Positions 539 through 5,802 of a stretch of DNA of 10,430 bases are shown piece after piece. How positions within the stretch are numbered: the first letter of the stretch is position 1; each line of letters opens with the position of its first letter. Under the pieces are notes generated by a model. The model did not search any database. It saw only the letters and a list, made by a program, of their open reading frames with translations, and was not told the DNA's origin. The stretch is from Spirosoma sp. (GTDB lineage Bacteria; Bacteroidota; Bacteroidia; Cytophagales; Spirosomataceae), in the NCBI GenBank assembly GCA_025351545.1, contig JANXVQ010000872.1, positions 1 through 10,430 on the forward strand, in the 5' to 3' direction. The position numbers and the translations under genes were made by a program.

Positions 539-2059
539 TTAGACTGACAAGTTTACCGATTCTTTTTGAATTCGGAAAGCCCGCCAACCGCATTTCTGCT
601 TTACATCATCCCAGGAAGCAAAAGCGTCCACAGTTACCAGAGAATCTGCCAGCCTAGCAGATCCCGTAAGCAGATCAGCCGGAACGTAAATATCCCCTAC
701 AAAGCCAAATCCTTTGCCATCTTTTACCCGCAGTGGCCCCGCAAGAATTCGGGTTTGCACATGAGTAAAGGGCTTTTCCGTAGCATTGGCCGTATGTACC
801 CGCAACTGTATCCGACCATTCTTCTCTTGTAACTTGTAACGAACTGCCAGTCGGTCGCCTACCACTGGTTGGAGCTTATACTTACCCACCGGAAAACTGC
901 CGGAAGTCCGTTCGTCGATGGATACATTCACGTATTGGCCTGTTGCGTCGACGCTGGTAACTAAGGCAACCGTTTCAGGACAGTCGGCCCATAGAAGACT
1001 TTCAGCCAGAGGCAATATAGCCTCGCACCATCGACCCAAAGGCGTGACTTCTGCTTGCGTATAGCGGCTATCGTTCATCCACAACTGTACCTCCGATGGC
1101 AAAGGCCATTGGTTAGCCTGGCGAGTTTGAACCAATTGGTCTATTTCAGCACTGGCATCGGCCCAACGGTTTTCCAGGATGAGCCAGGCCGCCATCTTTT
1201 GCCGTACTTTTACCAAAAATGATTCGGGCGTATTCAGCGTAAGAGCCCGGGCGTAACAGGCGGGCACCTGCTCTGGCGTAACAAGTTCAGCAAGTAGACT
1301 CCAGACCCAGAAATCATTCTTTTTAGTACGGGCAAAGGGCAAAAAGACAGCCATTGCTTCAGTAGGCCGATCAAGCCGAATAAGTAGTTGGGCATGGTAG
1401 TACGGTAGAAAATCCCAGTCAGGATGTCGGGCGGTTAGGTCAGCCAGCCGGTCAAGCCACGGAACTGCTACTTCATTGGGTAGTAAGACGGCCTGGAGGA
1501 GTTGTCGCACGACGGCCTGCACTATCCCCTCAATGAGTGGACGAACCGAACGCGGCTCGGTGGTTTTTCCGTCGCTATAAGTCTCGGGTTGCTCATCCTC
1601 AGGTCGGAAACTAGACTCCCAACCGTGTTGGGCAAACAGCCCCAGCCAGTCGATACCGGTAGCCTTGTGTCGCAACAGGGCTTTCCACCAAATGGAACGT
1701 AGCAAATCTGGCTCGGCAGGTATAAACGCCTTGCCCTGACGAATGACGTCAGCCAGCGGCCCCAGGGGCAGCGTCTCGGGCTTATGTCGCAGTAAAAACC
1801 GGCACACACTCCAGCCAACCGACTCGCGCCAGCGAGTATCCTCAACCATCGGGAAATCGGTAATTAGTGCCAGCCCGCGTAGCATTCGGGTGGTATCCGT
1901 ACTGCCCGATGCCTCTTTGAGCAGATCGGCATACACCCAGCCCAGTGCCCGGATCGTATGAGGATTAGCAGGATCGGCTTCGTAGCGGTTGCGGGCCTGT
2001 TGATAGGTGGCACGAAGGTCAGAACGGCAGGTCGTGGTGAGGGTGTTGTTGACGGTCAT
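539..2059 (-). CDS. TPR-like protein with tandem OB/cold-shock-like C-terminal domains, adaptation-module partner
   Basis: The protein has 506 aa from the ATG at 2059. An earlier ATG at 2137 stays in frame but would overlap cas2, and the extra 26 residues look unlike a domain, so 2059 is preferred; it lies 19 bp after the cas2 stop. Residues 1-350 are helical with TPR-like pairs (for example near 14-48, 219-245, 265-305). Residues 362-425 look like a small beta-barrel. Residues 438-500 contain GKGFGFVGDIYVP (448-460), close to the RNP1 motif of cold-shock domains (KGFGFI...DVFVH). This predicts single-stranded RNA or DNA binding joined to a protein-interaction scaffold. It is not one of the standard cas families I know. 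Its place as last gene of the cas1-primase-cas2 operon, next to the leader, suggests a role in handling substrate for spacer acquisition. That role is inference; the CSD-like call is fairly firm. Confidence 0.8.
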   Translation of the reverse strand: MTVNNTLTTTCRSDLRATYQQARNRYEADPANPHTIRALGWVYADLLKEASGSTDTTRMLRGLALITDFPMVEDTRWRESVGWSVCRFLLRHKPETLPLGPLADVIRQGKAFIPAEPDLLRSIWWKALLRHKATGIDWLGLFAQHGWESSFRPEDEQPETYSDGKTTEPRSVRPLIEGIVQAVVRQLLQAVLLPNEVAVPWLDRLADLTARHPDWDFLPYYHAQLLIRLDRPTEAMAVFLPFARTKKNDFWVWSLLAELVTPEQVPACYARALTLNTPESFLVKVRQKMAAWLILENRWADASAEIDQLVQTRQANQWPLPSEVQLWMNDSRYTQAEVTPLGRWCEAILPLAESLLWADCPETVALVTSVDATGQYVNVSIDERTSGSFPVGKYKLQPVVGDRLAVRYKLQEKNGRIQLRVHTANATEKPFTHVQTRILAGPLRVKDGKGFGFVGDIYVPADLLTGSARLADSLVTVDAFASWDDVKQKCGWRAFRIQKESVNLSV

Positions 2060-2078
2060 GGTGTTGGAGAAGAAAAGG

Positions 2079-2552
2079 TTAAACAAATACGGTGTGTTTT
2101 GGTGCTGTGATCTGCTGAAGTTCAAAGGATTGCCCAATGCACTGTAAACTGTTGAGCATGTCTTCGCCTACAGGCAATAGCATAATACTATCCTGATTCT
2201 CGTACAGTTGCTGAATCTGCCGAAGCAGGTCTGTTAGCCGAGCGTGCCGTTTTCGCTGAATACGCGCAAAAAACACCGATTTCTGAACCCGGATACAGCC
2301 TTCTTTTTCGAGAAGCCGCGCCACCATTCGGCGGATTTTGTCATTCTCGATATCATAGCAGATAAAGCAGTACATATCTTCAGGTCGTTTACGAGGTTGT
2401 TGCTGTAACCAGCCTAACCAGGCGGCCAAATGGGTGGGCAACGTCTGCCCATTCGCCAGTTCACCGTCGGTCAATGCGGGTAACCCGGCGCTGGCCCAGC
2501 GGTCATTCCGGTCGGGTAAGGGCAGTATCGGTTGTCGTTTTCGGCGGGGCAT
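2079..2552 (-). CDS. cas2: Cas2 with about 59-residue N-terminal extension
   Basis: The protein has 157 aa. Residues 60-157 are a normal-sized Cas2: a ferredoxin-like start MYCFICYDI with the conserved Asp at 67, then ENDKIRRMVARLLEKEG, the IRVQKSVF strand (88-95) and a closing VFV strand. Cas2 dimerises and bridges two Cas1 dimers in the spacer-integration complex. Residues 1-59 are extra: a basic start (MPRRKRQ), a proline-rich stretch, then a likely helix (LAAWLGWLQQQ). The start at 2552 lies 15 bp after the primase-polymerase stop, matching the tight packing of the operon. Starting at Met60 (2375) would leave an unusual gap of about 190 bp, so the long form is preferred. The extension could dock the primase or the TPR-OB protein, but nothing in the sequence proves that. 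Confidence 0.93.
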   Translation of the reverse strand: MPRRKRQPILPLPDRNDRWASAGLPALTDGELANGQTLPTHLAAWLGWLQQQPRKRPEDMYCFICYDIENDKIRRMVARLLEKEGCIRVQKSVFFARIQRKRHARLTDLLRQIQQLYENQDSIMLLPVGEDMLNSLQCIGQSFELQQITAPKHTVFV

Positions 2553-2567
2553 AGCGTAATGAGTGTA

Positions 2568-3611
2568 TTAATTCTCACAAAGTGCAATGGGTATGTTTTG
2601 CGCTACTGGTTCCGGGAAAAGGAGCCGGAAGAGTTCGTCGTAAAGTAGGTTAGACAGGGTAGGATCCGTACCCGTTTTGGGAGATCGCACCACCGAAAAG
2701 CCCCTCTTTCCAAAACACACATTAACTTCGGCCCGCCGAAATCCTTGCTTTATGGCCACCTTCAGCCCGTAATTTAGCGGAGTCAGCTCGGTCAGTTCCC
2801 AGGTAAACTGGACGCAAATAGCCCGTACCGCTGGTTCGATGGTCCAAAGTTCGTCGGGGACAAACGTTTGTTTCTCTCGTCTTCTGAGGGTGTTCGGGTT
2901 TATGGCTCGGAGCATATCGCGATAAGCAACTTCATTAATGGGCCGCTCAACAGCGGGTTTACGAGCCAAAACGACTACGTCGGAATCGGTATCATCGTCG
3001 AACAGCAATTCCCCCGACTGAGTATGGTTAGGTAACCACAGCCGCCAGTCAACGGGCATAGCATCGGGATTGTGGTAAGCCTTGGGGTCATGCGCCAGAA
3101 AGCAAGCCCGCGTCGCGTCGGATGTGCGCAGGTCAACGCTTTTTACAAAGCCGTGTCTGAGTCCGAAATCACCCGCAAAATTGCGGTAAGCTGCCGAGAA
3201 CGTTTTGGCATCGGTGCAGGGATCAAGCAACCGAAAAAACAGTTTCAAGCCCTCACCCGATGGCGACACAAACGCCAGCGTCACCGACAAATCAGCCCGA
3301 ATCGCGTCAGGAACCTGCCCATCCAGCCCGGTGCAGTGGTCAAGATCGAGTACAAAATACGTAGCTTCTTCAAGCGAATCCATCCGCCGAACGCCATTTG
3401 CAAACACACTCCCTACCACGTAGGGCAGGCTGGTTTTAGCTGTTTTATAGGCATTTTGGTCAAACTGAGCCAACTTTCGCAGCCGCTCAGTCTGATGTTG
3501 CAGTGCCGCATTGGTGCGCACCCAGGTAGCTACCTCAGCCAGTGAAATCGGACGCAGTGTATCTGTCGCACGCGTAATCTGTTGCCCGGAAGAAAGAAAT
3601 GGCGTCGTCAT
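2568..3611 (-). CDS. CRISPR-associated primase-polymerase (VirE-N/BT4734-like AEP)
   Basis: The protein has 347 aa. Residues 80-190 carry the hallmarks of the archaeo-eukaryotic primase superfamily in its VirE-N (BT4734-like) form: motif I FVLDLD with metal-binding D89 and D91, motif II SPSGEGLKL (116-124), and motif III with D160 in SVDLRTSD, followed by the family's ACFLAHDPKAYHNP stretch. Such enzymes make primers and extend DNA. CRISPR-associated primase-polymerases (CAPPs) are reported beside cas1-cas2 in type III loci and are proposed to copy captured nucleic acid into integration-ready DNA. The C-terminal part (about 262-335) holds a conserved-looking block, AEVNVCFGKRGFSVV, that I cannot assign. 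No helicase domain follows, unlike the VirE-N proteins of mobile elements. The gene starts 63 bp downstream of the predicted transcription start, with a hairpin between. Primase assignment is strong; the role in acquisition is inferred from context. Confidence 0.88.
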   Translation of the reverse strand: MTTPFLSSGQQITRATDTLRPISLAEVATWVRTNAALQHQTERLRKLAQFDQNAYKTAKTSLPYVVGSVFANGVRRMDSLEEATYFVLDLDHCTGLDGQVPDAIRADLSVTLAFVSPSGEGLKLFFRLLDPCTDAKTFSAAYRNFAGDFGLRHGFVKSVDLRTSDATRACFLAHDPKAYHNPDAMPVDWRLWLPNHTQSGELLFDDDTDSDVVVLARKPAVERPINEVAYRDMLRAINPNTLRRREKQTFVPDELWTIEPAVRAICVQFTWELTELTPLNYGLKVAIKQGFRRAEVNVCFGKRGFSVVRSPKTGTDPTLSNLLYDELFRLLFPEPVAQNIPIALCEN

Positions 3612-3625
3612 GGCAGAACGGGTTT

Positions 3626-3672
3626 AAAAGCCCCTCTCCTGAAAAGCAGGAGAGGGGTTGAGGTGAGGTGAA
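3626..3672 (-). repeat. REP-like palindrome in the leader of the primase-cas2 operon
   Basis: A perfect 11-bp stem, CCCCTCTCCTG / CAGGAGAGGGG (3631-3641 and 3647-3657), encloses a 5-base loop and is flanked by a GGTGAGGT-type tail (3662-3669). From memory, similar CCCCTCTCC...GGAGAGGGG-GGTGAGG elements recur between genes in many bacteria. On the minus strand the stem is followed by CTTTTAAA, so it also resembles an intrinsic terminator. It would end read-through from cas1, but it also lies downstream of the promoter at 3681-3688 and about 20 nt before the primase start codon, so attenuation or mRNA stabilisation is equally possible. Confidence 0.75.
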
Positions 3673-3680
3673 TCAGGTTA

Positions 3681-3688
3681 CAAAAATA
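3681..3688 (-). promoter_or_regulatory. Putative -7 promoter box for the primase-cas2-TPR operon
   Basis: The minus strand reads TATTTTTG, an exact match to the Bacteroidota -7 consensus TAnnTTTG. Its last base is 17 nt from the edge of the palindrome at 3698-3716. No clear -33 TTTG box is present where one would be expected; the palindrome occupies that place. The predicted start of transcription is near 3674, giving an untranslated leader of about 63 nt. Confidence 0.5.
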
Positions 3689-3697
3689 TAGTACCTT

Positions 3698-3716
3698 ACT
3701 GCAATTCCATTGCAGT
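3698..3716. promoter_or_regulatory. Operator copy A, 19-bp inverted repeat
   Basis: The sequence is ACTGCAATTCCATTGCAGT: perfect 8-bp arms around a 3-bp centre, located 10 bp beyond the cas1 stop codon. The same arms recur at 4776-4794. The symmetry and size suit a dimeric HTH regulator, and the nearby WYL protein is the obvious candidate. Confidence 0.8.
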
Positions 3717-3726
3717 GAAATGTACT

Positions 3727-4725
3727 TCATTCAGAGATGACCAACTTTCTTAGTGTACTGGCTAGCTGCTGAGCTTCCAGCACAATATGCTGCCCCCGCG
3801 AGCGTGACAGGCCTGTTACGCCAAGTGCCACCACTTCAGCCAGGTAGTCGTTCATCGACTGAATCAATATCCGTTTGCCCGTCGTATTCAGGTAAAACGT
3901 ATCGTTTTCGCGGTCAAAAAATTCATCGAACACGATTTCCTGGACCAGCAAATGACACACCACATAGTCGGCCCAGGCCCGAAATGGCTCAATAAAGTCA
4001 TAGGTCAACACCGGGCGATTGTATTCATCACGGTGCATAACGCCCACAAACGGATCGACTCCTGCCGTAATCAGCGCCGATTCACACTGGCCGTAGAGCA
4101 TACCGTATGCATAGTTGAGCAGACAGTTAAATATATCGGTGGCTCCACGTCCACTGCGTCGGGCAAAGCGATAAGCCTCTGGCAGGATTGTGTTCAATTG
4201 GGCAAAATAGACCCGCCCTGCGCTGCCCTCCAATCCCCGAAACGTAGCGAAACACTCACTGAGGTCACCAATCGGTGTATCGCGCAATTTTTGCGAATAG
4301 CGACTAATCGTATTCACACTTTGTTCCCGGTCGGGTTGATGGCCCTGACCGGTTAGTGCGCTTAGTAAGTCGATAACCGTAGCCTGATTATCGAGCTTAC
4401 GGAGTAGTAATCCGCGAATCCATTCGGCCCCGGCCTTGCTTTGCGAAAATGCAAGCTGGTGTTTCCGAATGGTCGCAATGGAGCCAAAACGGTTGCTCCA
4501 GATCCGCCCCGTTGGAAATCCCCGCCGATCAACAAATAGAATATCCGTATTCTGCTCAATGGCCATCATGACAACGTCGTGGCTCAGGCGTGTGGCAGCG
4601 TGCAACACAATACTACTGACCTCGTGGACAGGCATAAAAAATTCACGCTCACGGCTCCGTACCCGATACCGGCTACCCGATACTGATAAGCTGCTACCCC
4701 GTTGGTTAAGAACTAGTTGTGTCAT
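3727..4725 (-). CDS. cas1: Cas1 integrase
   Basis: The protein has 332 aa, the usual Cas1 length. Cas1 is the metal-dependent integrase that inserts spacers at the leader-repeat junction in complex with Cas2. The N-terminal beta domain includes VHEVSSIVLH (33-42) and LFVDRRGFPTGR (63-74). The catalytic helical domain shows E166 in GLEGSAGRVYF, H231 in GVMHRDEYNRP, and D243 with E246 in LTYDFIEPFR, so all metal ligands appear intact. The ATG at 4725 is chosen because an in-frame ATG at 4761 falls within the predicted promoter box (4759-4766), and MTQLVLNQRG is a natural Cas1 beginning. No reverse transcriptase or Cas6 is fused to it. It is the first gene of the adaptation module, divergent from the WYL regulator, with 105 bp between the two start codons and operator copy B inside that gap. 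Confidence 0.97.
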   Translation of the reverse strand: MTQLVLNQRGSSLSVSGSRYRVRSREREFFMPVHEVSSIVLHAATRLSHDVVMMAIEQNTDILFVDRRGFPTGRIWSNRFGSIATIRKHQLAFSQSKAGAEWIRGLLLRKLDNQATVIDLLSALTGQGHQPDREQSVNTISRYSQKLRDTPIGDLSECFATFRGLEGSAGRVYFAQLNTILPEAYRFARRSGRGATDIFNCLLNYAYGMLYGQCESALITAGVDPFVGVMHRDEYNRPVLTYDFIEPFRAWADYVVCHLLVQEIVFDEFFDRENDTFYLNTTGKRILIQSMNDYLAEVVALGVTGLSRSRGQHIVLEAQQLASTLRKLVISE

Positions 4726-4758
4726 GATGTGGATAGATGATAACTCTGATTTGTTAAA

Positions 4759-4766
4759 CAAAATAA
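4759..4766 (-). promoter_or_regulatory. Putative -7 promoter box for cas1
   Basis: The minus strand reads TTATTTTG, 7 of the 8 positions of TAnnTTTG including the unspecified ones. Its last base is 17 nt from the palindrome at 4776-4794, the same distance as in the other promoter. Transcription would start near 4752, about 27 nt before the cas1 ATG. Confidence 0.45.
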
Positions 4767-4775
4767 GCCTATTCT

Positions 4776-4794
4776 ACTGCAATGAAATTGCAGT
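4776..4794. promoter_or_regulatory. Operator copy B, 19-bp inverted repeat
   Basis: The plus strand reads ACTGCAATGAAATTGCAGT; on the minus strand it is ACTGCAATTTCATTGCAGT, differing from copy A at one base. It sits between the divergent cas1 and WYL regulator genes, so one bound dimer could affect both promoters and provide autoregulation. Confidence 0.85.
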
Positions 4795-4830: not shown

Positions 4831-5802
4831 ATGTCTAAAAACAAAAAATACATGGATAGGCTGATGGCTATCCATGAGAAGCTTAGCAGCGGTCAGCATT
4901 ACACATTCATCGAATTACGCGAAGCCTGTGAACGTAGCATTGACCAGACCATTTCCGAAAAAACACTCTTTAACGATCTTGATTCGCTACGGGATTTAGG
5001 GGCTCTTATTCCAAGACGAAACCGATCCGGCCGACCCTATTATTATGAAGAACCATTCTCACTGCATAGTGCCCTGAATCCAACCGATGCGGCCCTGGCT
5101 AACGAAGCCGTAGCCTTGATCCGGCGCATGAACACGTTACCGCATTTTGACGGTTTAGCAGAAGTTATGCTCAAATTCGAGCAACAGCCAGGCGTAATCG
5201 GGAAACCAAAAGAACGCGTCGTTGATTTCGAGCAGAACCGGCAGTACAAAGGGCTGGCCTGGCTATCTCCACTCTATAAATCCATTCAGGCCGATCAGCT
5301 GGTACTGGTTCAGTATACAGGATTTGACCAACCGACGGCCACACTGACGTTTAGCCCGTATTTATTGAAAGAATACAACAATCGCTGGCATGTCTATGGC
5401 CGGGGTGCCGAATCGCTGGGTTTAGATAGTCTGGCGCTGGACCGCATTGATACGTTAAACCCTTTGCCCAGCCTGCGCCGACAGCCAAACACCGTCAATT
5501 GGATGACCCACTTAGCGGATGTGGTTGGCTTTACCCACCTGACAAACATGCCCCTCGAAACCTGGTTACTGCGTGTCTGGCAACCCAGAGCGCGTTACGT
5601 GGAAACAAAGCCCCTACATACTTCCCAGGATAAAATAGCTGAAACCGACGAGTTCATAGATTTTCAGTATCACTTGAGATGGAATAAAGAACTCGACGCC
5701 AAAATTCTGGAACTTGGCCCCGATGCCGAGTTATTGGCTCCACCTGACCACCGTAAACGATTTTTAAAATTGGTGAAAAAGCTGGTCAGTCGATATGAAT
5801 AA
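4831..5802 (+). CDS. WYL-domain transcriptional regulator
   Basis: The protein has 323 aa. Residues 1-75 form a winged helix-turn-helix with the typical QTISEKTLFNDLDSLRDLGA segment. The middle (about 140-210) is a WYL domain: PLYKSIQADQLVLVQY, then PYLLKEYNNRWHVYGRG, with WHV replacing the name-giving Trp-Tyr-Leu, and LDRI at 203-206. The C-terminal part (about 240-320) resembles the WCX extension. WYL proteins are ligand-sensing DNA-binding regulators often found in CRISPR and other defence loci, and some repress cas genes. The start is the ATG at 4831, after an A-rich tract; an in-frame TTG at 4807 adds only eight residues and overlaps the likely promoter. The 19-bp palindrome 37 bp upstream, repeated before the primase gene, is its likely binding site. 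The ligand is unknown, and activation versus repression cannot be read from the sequence. Confidence 0.92.
   Translation: MSKNKKYMDRLMAIHEKLSSGQHYTFIELREACERSIDQTISEKTLFNDLDSLRDLGALIPRRNRSGRPYYYEEPFSLHSALNPTDAALANEAVALIRRMNTLPHFDGLAEVMLKFEQQPGVIGKPKERVVDFEQNRQYKGLAWLSPLYKSIQADQLVLVQYTGFDQPTATLTFSPYLLKEYNNRWHVYGRGAESLGLDSLALDRIDTLNPLPSLRRQPNTVNWMTHLADVVGFTHLTNMPLETWLLRVWQPRARYVETKPLHTSQDKIAETDEFIDFQYHLRWNKELDAKILELGPDAELLAPPDHRKRFLKLVKKLVSRYE

Follow-up and report, generated by a model that had tools for sequence, protein, structure and literature searches.

Locus organization

The window, by which we mean the whole stretch of 10,430 nt analysed here from Spirosoma sp. (contig JANXVQ010000872.1 of assembly GCA_025351545.1), is filled by part of a type III-A CRISPR (clustered regularly interspaced short palindromic repeats) locus in which the gene of a WYL regulator adjoins the acquisition genes, and the subject of this work is a 19-bp dyad present twice in front of the latter. 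The acquisition module lies on the minus strand and comprises cas1 (3727..4722; PF01867, TIGR00287), for which the ATG at 4722 was taken, the open reading frame (ORF) continuing to a TTG at 4761; the gene of a CRISPR-associated primase-polymerase type B (CAPP_B), hereafter primpol (2568..3611; NF040562, 334 bits against a cut-off of 200); cas2 (2079..2552; PF09827, TIGR01573), downstream of primpol and co-directional with it; and, as the module's last gene, a DUF7017/TOTE S1-like gene (539..2137; PF22860, PF22707), whose start codon is uncertain and which has an equivalent place in Rudanella and Fibrisoma. CAPP_B proteins have been tied to Cas1-Cas2 and occur mainly in type III operons of Bacteroidetes, and a text search counted no mention of WYL in the searchable text of that paper (PMC8211822). 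The WYL gene (4831..5802, from the first ATG of its ORF) lies on the plus strand, divergent from cas1, and encodes the putative binder and activator discussed below, whose closest named homologue, from Spirosoma koreense, is 72% identical; its architecture consists of three predicted N-terminal helices followed by the WYL fold (PF13280) and a WCX domain (PF25583, barely over the cut-off).

The palindrome ACTGCAAT-N3-ATTGCAGT occurs exactly at 4776..4794 and at 3698..3716, with all 16 arm bases common to both copies. The former, the putative WYL site of the cas1 promoter, occupies the divergent cas1-WYL spacer and has counterparts in Rudanella and Fibrisoma; the latter, the putative WYL site of the primpol promoter, occupies the cas1-primpol spacer, lies 10 nt past the cas1 stop codon and has a Rudanella counterpart at L035:11010. 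On the minus strand, to which both sites are assigned, each 19-mer stops exactly 17 nt ahead of the final G of a TAnnTTTG-like -7 box, namely TTATTTTG (4759..4766, minus strand; 5/6 to TAnnTTTG), which faces cas1, and TATTTTTG (3681..3688, minus strand; 6/6), which faces primpol. Because start mapping in Flavobacterium psychrophilum places such boxes at -12 to -5 (PMC9723704), the 19-mers span about -40 to -22, with their centre near -31, and transcription is predicted to start near 4754 for cas1 and near 3676 for primpol. An original prediction made from this stretch had put the starts at 4752 and 3674; the shared palindrome, the fixed register, the position ahead of cas1 and the primase-polymerase and the overlap with the place of a -33 box were all found as it described them. 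With up to three mismatches allowed, the two palindromes are the only matches in the window (0.04 expected; two sites in 0 of 200 shuffles), in line with its further claim that a chance match is very unlikely. A TTG within the palindrome was considered as a -33 box and rejected, its gap to the -7 box being 13 (counted by eye).

The remainder of the window holds a CRISPR array of six 37-nt repeats (24-428) and, to the right of the WYL gene on the minus strand, a Csm6-like gene (under the curated cut-offs), csm5, csm4 and the end of csm3. A perfect 11-bp hairpin (3631..3657, minus strand) lies in the predicted 5' leader of primpol and has two one-mismatch copies elsewhere in the assembly.

Rarity and conservation of the dyad

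The source assembly (5.07 Mb, 80% complete) contains two exact copies of the palindrome and a third relative with two mismatches on another contig (G000:C333:3195-3213, L003). The palindrome is therefore not common across the genome, an outcome that would have told against the original prediction, and a common genome repeat is ruled out by the two exact copies together with the restriction of the register pattern to those two places. Among 341 genomes of the order, the exact palindrome is present in two, the source assembly and a Rudanella genome (G233), which also carries the second-best WYL match among the other genomes of that sample. The pattern TGCA-N7-TGCA-N15-TTTG has two matches in the source assembly and two in Rudanella (four contigs, 99% complete), every one within the module, none in Fibrisoma, whose site carries a mismatch, and three and five in two Runella genomes, of which one and two are inside the module; the reversed pattern has 0, 0, 2, 3 and 0 matches in the same five genomes (source, Rudanella, Fibrisoma and the two Runella). 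More sites could be missing from the source assembly because it is 80% complete; the more complete Rudanella genome likewise shows just two.

A search of related genomes, as had been suggested at the outset, gave sites in other WYL-linked acquisition loci. The Rudanella locus has the order csm, WYL, gene X, gene Y, cas1, primpol, cas2 and TOTE-like gene, with a one-mismatch site before X and the exact palindrome before primpol, and Fibrisoma has a one-mismatch site before X. All five sites of the three species stand at 17 nt, the nine bases between dyad and box differing, and these distances are kept even though the Rudanella and Fibrisoma WYL proteins are 47-48% identical to that of the window. 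Additional loci, gathered via a primpol search and via a WYL protein search, carry differently spelled sites before cas1, primpol or another gene. The Runella form is AATGCAG-N5-CTGCATT; G751 has TGTAAT-N3-ATTACA, which G805 closely approaches; G844 and G806 have mixed forms, and two Cyclobacteriaceae metagenome-assembled genomes have TGCA-N7-TGCA. Sites exactly 17 nt from the box number 17 in all and come from 11 of the 15 WYL-linked acquisition loci; L045 and L215 share their first 2000 bases, the contigs of L046 and L171 are equally long, and L165 and L215 resemble one locus split over two contigs. The loci added by the order-wide primpol search lacked a WYL gene in the retrieved stretch, and a plasmid search gave no new acquisition locus among the matches listed (15 of 22 records).

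Genes X (about 428 aa, with coiled coils and membrane helices by eye; L035:7593-8879 in Rudanella, L036:10217-11491 in Fibrisoma) and Y (about 289 aa, with a signal-like start by eye; L035:8979-9848 and L036:11526-12389, respectively) separate WYL from cas1 in Rudanella and form a single fused gene in Runella (L037:9374-11488); Pfam at 0.001 gave no family for either. The Fibrisoma locus is without cas1, primpol and the first or most part of cas2 (L036:12218-12604) and retains WYL, the site, X and Y.

The register was quantified in 45 upstream regions of module genes by counting palindrome pairs (of 8) together with a TAnnTTTG-like box (5/6) at distances of 8-31 nt. With at least 6 of 8 pairs, 11 of the 45 regions scored at 17 nt and at most one at each other distance; with at least 7 pairs, the numbers were 8 against 1. 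Control regions, 18 in number, came from nine primpol loci whose retrieved stretch showed no WYL gene, some of them on short contigs and one (G810) with a WYL gene on another contig; none of the 18 had at least 6 pairs at 17 nt, and with at least 5 pairs one did, compared with 16 of the 45 test regions. These loci do not provide an independent test, the register having first been noticed in them.

In a tree of 20 WYL proteins, the window protein groups with those of Rudanella and Fibrisoma (TGCAAT-type sites; support 100/99), G844 with G751 and G806 (TGTAA type; 86/85), the Runella pair together (100/100) and the two Cyclobacteriaceae genomes together (100/96). Across the sequences compared, the letters of the dyad thus drift with the WYL clade while the distance stays fixed. 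G805 was a misfit, having a TGTAA-type site and a first-seen WYL protein that grouped elsewhere in the tree; a search of its genome gave a second WYL protein, not included in the tree, which is 50% identical to that of G751, is encoded about 9 kb from the cas1 site and has a site at 17 nt within its own divergent spacer. Because this second protein matches better, the exception is resolved.

The 17-nt register in other Bacteroidota WYL loci

Supposed non-CRISPR control loci proved to carry such sites as well, in the divergent spacer (L038, L043) or after the WYL gene (L042), and 84 other Bacteroidota WYL loci were therefore tested. The palindrome-plus-box rule was applied without dyad letters at distances of 9-35 nt, each locus being oriented by translation; ten discovery loci (L005-L007, L044-L046, L052, L053, L069, L096), five loci of the whole-locus scan (L008, L009, L010, L011, L014) and loci with less than 200 nt of usable region were left out. 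A 17-nt dyad facing the gene divergent from WYL was present in 24 of the 84 loci (26 matches), compared with 0-5 loci at other distances, the immediately neighbouring distances of 16 and 18 nt giving a background of 3 and 4 loci. Two hundred shuffles gave a mean of 1.94 divergent loci at 17 nt and a maximum of 7, and with 7 pairs the count was 7 loci at 17 nt against 0-1 elsewhere. L008 and L011, outside the 84, also have a divergent site at 17 nt, and L042 has none because its site follows the WYL gene and faces the next co-directional gene. By these counts, the architecture read from a single locus is present in many Bacteroidota WYL loci. Grouped by the identity of their WYL proteins, 25 loci with a 17-nt site (22 from the 84-locus set plus L038, L042 and L043) make 20 clusters at 60%, 11 at 50% and 8 at 40%.

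The faced genes, identified by Pfam in part of the loci with 17-nt sites, include five RtcB ligases (L063, L072, L074, L077, L081), three Ro60/TROVE proteins (L020, L058, L043) and one each of RlaP, TIR, Sel1-repeat protein and reverse transcriptase, with a DNA methylase following WYL; Pfam gave no family for the faced genes of L021, L095 and L214. The RtcB and Ro60 loci have TGCGC- or TACGC-type dyads at 17 nt, and several of these and comparable loci hold additional sites upstream of other genes. Among 428 regions upstream of the remaining genes in WYL loci, 19 sites were at 17 nt, the other distances giving 2-9 each; most of the 19 resemble additional targets within their loci because 12 of them score at least 9/12 on the WYL-site consensus, one in L076, before a helicase-like ORF, being doubtful by eye. 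When 43 sites were aligned to the direction of their targets, 33 had an A at position 8 and 34 an A at position 12, so that the sites are oriented, an asymmetric centre being impossible in a perfect dyad and expected if the polymerase reads the middle. A motif scan also peaked at 17 nt, a peak that is partly circular, the consensus coming in part from the scanned loci, and ten minus-strand WYL loci were misoriented in it.

The original prediction had further proposed that the WYL protein controls the acquisition genes and itself, as a small regulon separate from csm. The first part agrees with sites that accompany WYL and acquisition genes as a small set apart from csm. Control of the WYL gene itself through the 17-nt register, on the other hand, is not supported by the sequences: the dyad at 4776-4794 is upstream of both cas1 and the WYL gene, no register supports self-control, and the 17-nt register points toward WYL in 1 of the 84 loci versus 24 away from it. 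There is a diffuse excess toward WYL at 23-26 nt (6, 6, 6 and 7 loci), which may reflect the WYL gene's own promoter. A shared promoter geometry toward WYL was considered and rejected, palindromes with a divergent box at 17 nt showing no constant box distance on their other side. In three related Alistipes loci (L090, L095, L108), the motif-scan sites at 17 nt face both WYL and the opposite side, a pattern that would be compatible with self-activation.

Discussion

We propose, with a probability of roughly three in four, that the adjacent WYL protein is a DriD-like dimeric activator that binds both dyads and switches on the acquisition genes cas1 and primpol and, with them, the downstream cas2 and TOTE-like gene. 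The dyad would cover about -40 to -22, the place of the -33 element, in promoters without a TTG at the usual position, and sigma region 4, unable to grip such a promoter alone, would be held there by the bound dimer in the manner of DriD, so that acquisition would begin only with the WYL protein in its active state. The trigger would likely be single-stranded nucleic acid from phage infection or DNA damage, since DriD and PafBC are activated by single-stranded DNA in their WYL domains (PMC11804915, PMC12340889). A Foldseek search with the modelled WYL protein ranked DriD first, at full length (8e-12), followed by PafBC (2e-11), CapW (2e-7) and BrxR (9e-7). R185 and R205 are invariant in 48 WYL homologues, which is compatible with a nucleic-acid ligand and proves nothing.

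Several observations weigh against this proposal. The WYL model is of moderate quality (predicted local distance difference test score, pLDDT, 84.5; predicted template modelling score, pTM, 0.60; TM about 0.5), and a sequence profile ranks CapW level with DriD, PafBC and BrxR being weaker. A whole-locus scan that ignored gene starts gave a weaker peak, with 28 matches at 17 nt compared with 6-25 elsewhere for 6 pairs and 10 compared with 0-8 for 7 pairs. Among the 17 module sites, 6 fall short of 6 of 8 pairs, having been admitted on core likeness plus register, and 4 of the 15 loci (Rhabdobacter, L053, L096 and G251) have no clear site; G251 has two 19-nt stretches (L166:560-920), 16/19 alike and 17 nt before a TTTG box, which by eye are hardly palindromic. 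In Runella, 2 of 3 and 3 of 5 pattern matches are outside the module, and both WYL-adjacent spacers contain, by eye, a degenerate dyad 21 nt from the box. The promoter argument also has limits. The consensus gap between TTG and box is taken as 17-23; a TTG in that range is absent from all 43 sites, and 189 control boxes carry 49, likewise without a sharp peak. The missing -33 TTG is a weak argument because the dyad's own letters partly fill that place. Finally, the choice of an activator leans on sequence and a structural model, and WYL repressors exist.

The same WYL protein might indeed bind the same dyads as a repressor, blocking RNA polymerase until phage infection releases it, in the style of BrxR, CapW and Sll7009, which we regard as unlikely while counting it as the strongest competitor. 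CapW, level with DriD in the profile search, is reportedly such a repressor at a defence locus. Published WYL repressors of defence loci include BrxR and Sll7009 (PMC9122601; for Sll7009 also PMC4012209, PMC6604393), and the overlap of the dyad with -33 would suit a blocker as well, the original prediction having held that both modes of action fit. That overlap stands; the activator is now favoured because the distance is one exact value, the centre is oriented and the modelled protein comes nearest to DriD and PafBC. A blocker needs no exact distance, yet the distances one nucleotide to either side are at background, against 24 loci at 17 nt, and the site centre is oriented toward the target gene; the lack of a normally spaced TTG is a weak further point against repression. 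That the dyad belongs to an unrelated regulator, or is a global Bacteroidota promoter feature with WYL as a bystander, appears distinctly improbable. The link between site and WYL protein is drawn from sequence, and 17 nt stands out upstream of other genes too; most of those sites, however, match the WYL-site consensus, the source assembly and the Rudanella genome contain few exact or register matches, and the sites adjoin WYL genes in loci that are not related otherwise and vary from one WYL clade to another. Least credible, and disfavoured by the conservation and register tests, is that the palindromes are mobile or RNA elements (a terminator, a repeat unit or an integration site) or chance. 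The location of one palindrome just past the cas1 stop codon would suit this reading, but no T-run follows it by eye, the same promoter place is occupied in other genera, and neither the two exact copies in the assembly nor the shuffles favour such an origin.

The timing of spacer acquisition by cells is poorly understood, above all in type III systems. If the activator proposal is correct, one WYL protein activates cas1 together with the CRISPR primase-polymerase, separately from the csm effector, and the trigger of this switch can be sought directly. The fixed 17-nt distance offers a sequence rule for finding targets of uncharacterised Bacteroidota WYL regulators; the genes of RtcB, Ro60 and RlaP, among other repair or defence genes, have already come up through it. 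A broader proposition, whose prospects we consider evenly balanced, is that Bacteroidota WYL proteins are phylum-wide sigma4-anchoring activators sharing one code, an oriented dyad (approximately TGCGCAAAWAGATTGCGCA) that spans -40 to -22 and is separated by exactly 17 nt from the last G of the target's -7 box, and that in type III loci with CAPP_B this would place acquisition, and not interference, under a switch induced by infection or damage; memory would therefore be written only when single-stranded nucleic acid signals attack. Among the best-ranked open-access matches of a literature search, none stood out as dealing with the control of acquisition genes by WYL proteins or with the 17-nt register.

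Comparison with known systems

BrxR and CapW are, like the regulator of the window, WYL proteins at defence loci, and BrxR binds inverted repeats, but they are repressors, and a constant register to -10 is unmentioned in the portion of the BrxR report consulted (PMC9122601). PafBC, a WYL activator, takes up a position between sigma4 and the promoter DNA, but as a heterodimer reading a -26 motif (PMC11804915), whereas here there is one WYL gene and a dyad; a PafBC-type pair of WYL parts was not found, the window encoding a single 323-aa protein with one WYL and one WCX domain and no second WYL ORF. SiwR of Mycobacterium smegmatis is a WYL homodimer activator with a 19-bp imperfect palindrome between -35 and -10 of the neighbouring operon, although it acts via the -26 region and targets dinB-like genes (PMC10693628). 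DriD of Caulobacter, a WYL homodimer activator and the best Foldseek match of the window protein, has a dyad over -35 at a constant distance from -10 in its promoters (PMC12340889, a preprint). Here, too, there is a predicted winged helix-turn-helix, WYL and WCX arrangement, a dyad of similar length (about 20 bp for DriD, 19 bp here), a constant distance to the box and a site over a poor -35/-33 element; DriD differs in serving sigma73 promoters of DNA-damage genes in Caulobacter, whereas the present sites precede a Bacteroidota -7 box and CRISPR acquisition genes. The nearest functional parallel comes from an archaeon: Csa3a of Sulfolobus is a MarR-like/CARF protein of unrelated fold in a type I-A system (PMC4333418), and Pfam found no CARF domain in the window regulator, only WYL and WCX. 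As at the Spirosoma locus, the Csa3a gene lies beside and opposite to acquisition genes; Csa3a binds an imperfect palindrome at the csa1 and cas1 promoters, and its overexpression raises csa1 and cas1 transcription together with spacer uptake (PMC4333418).
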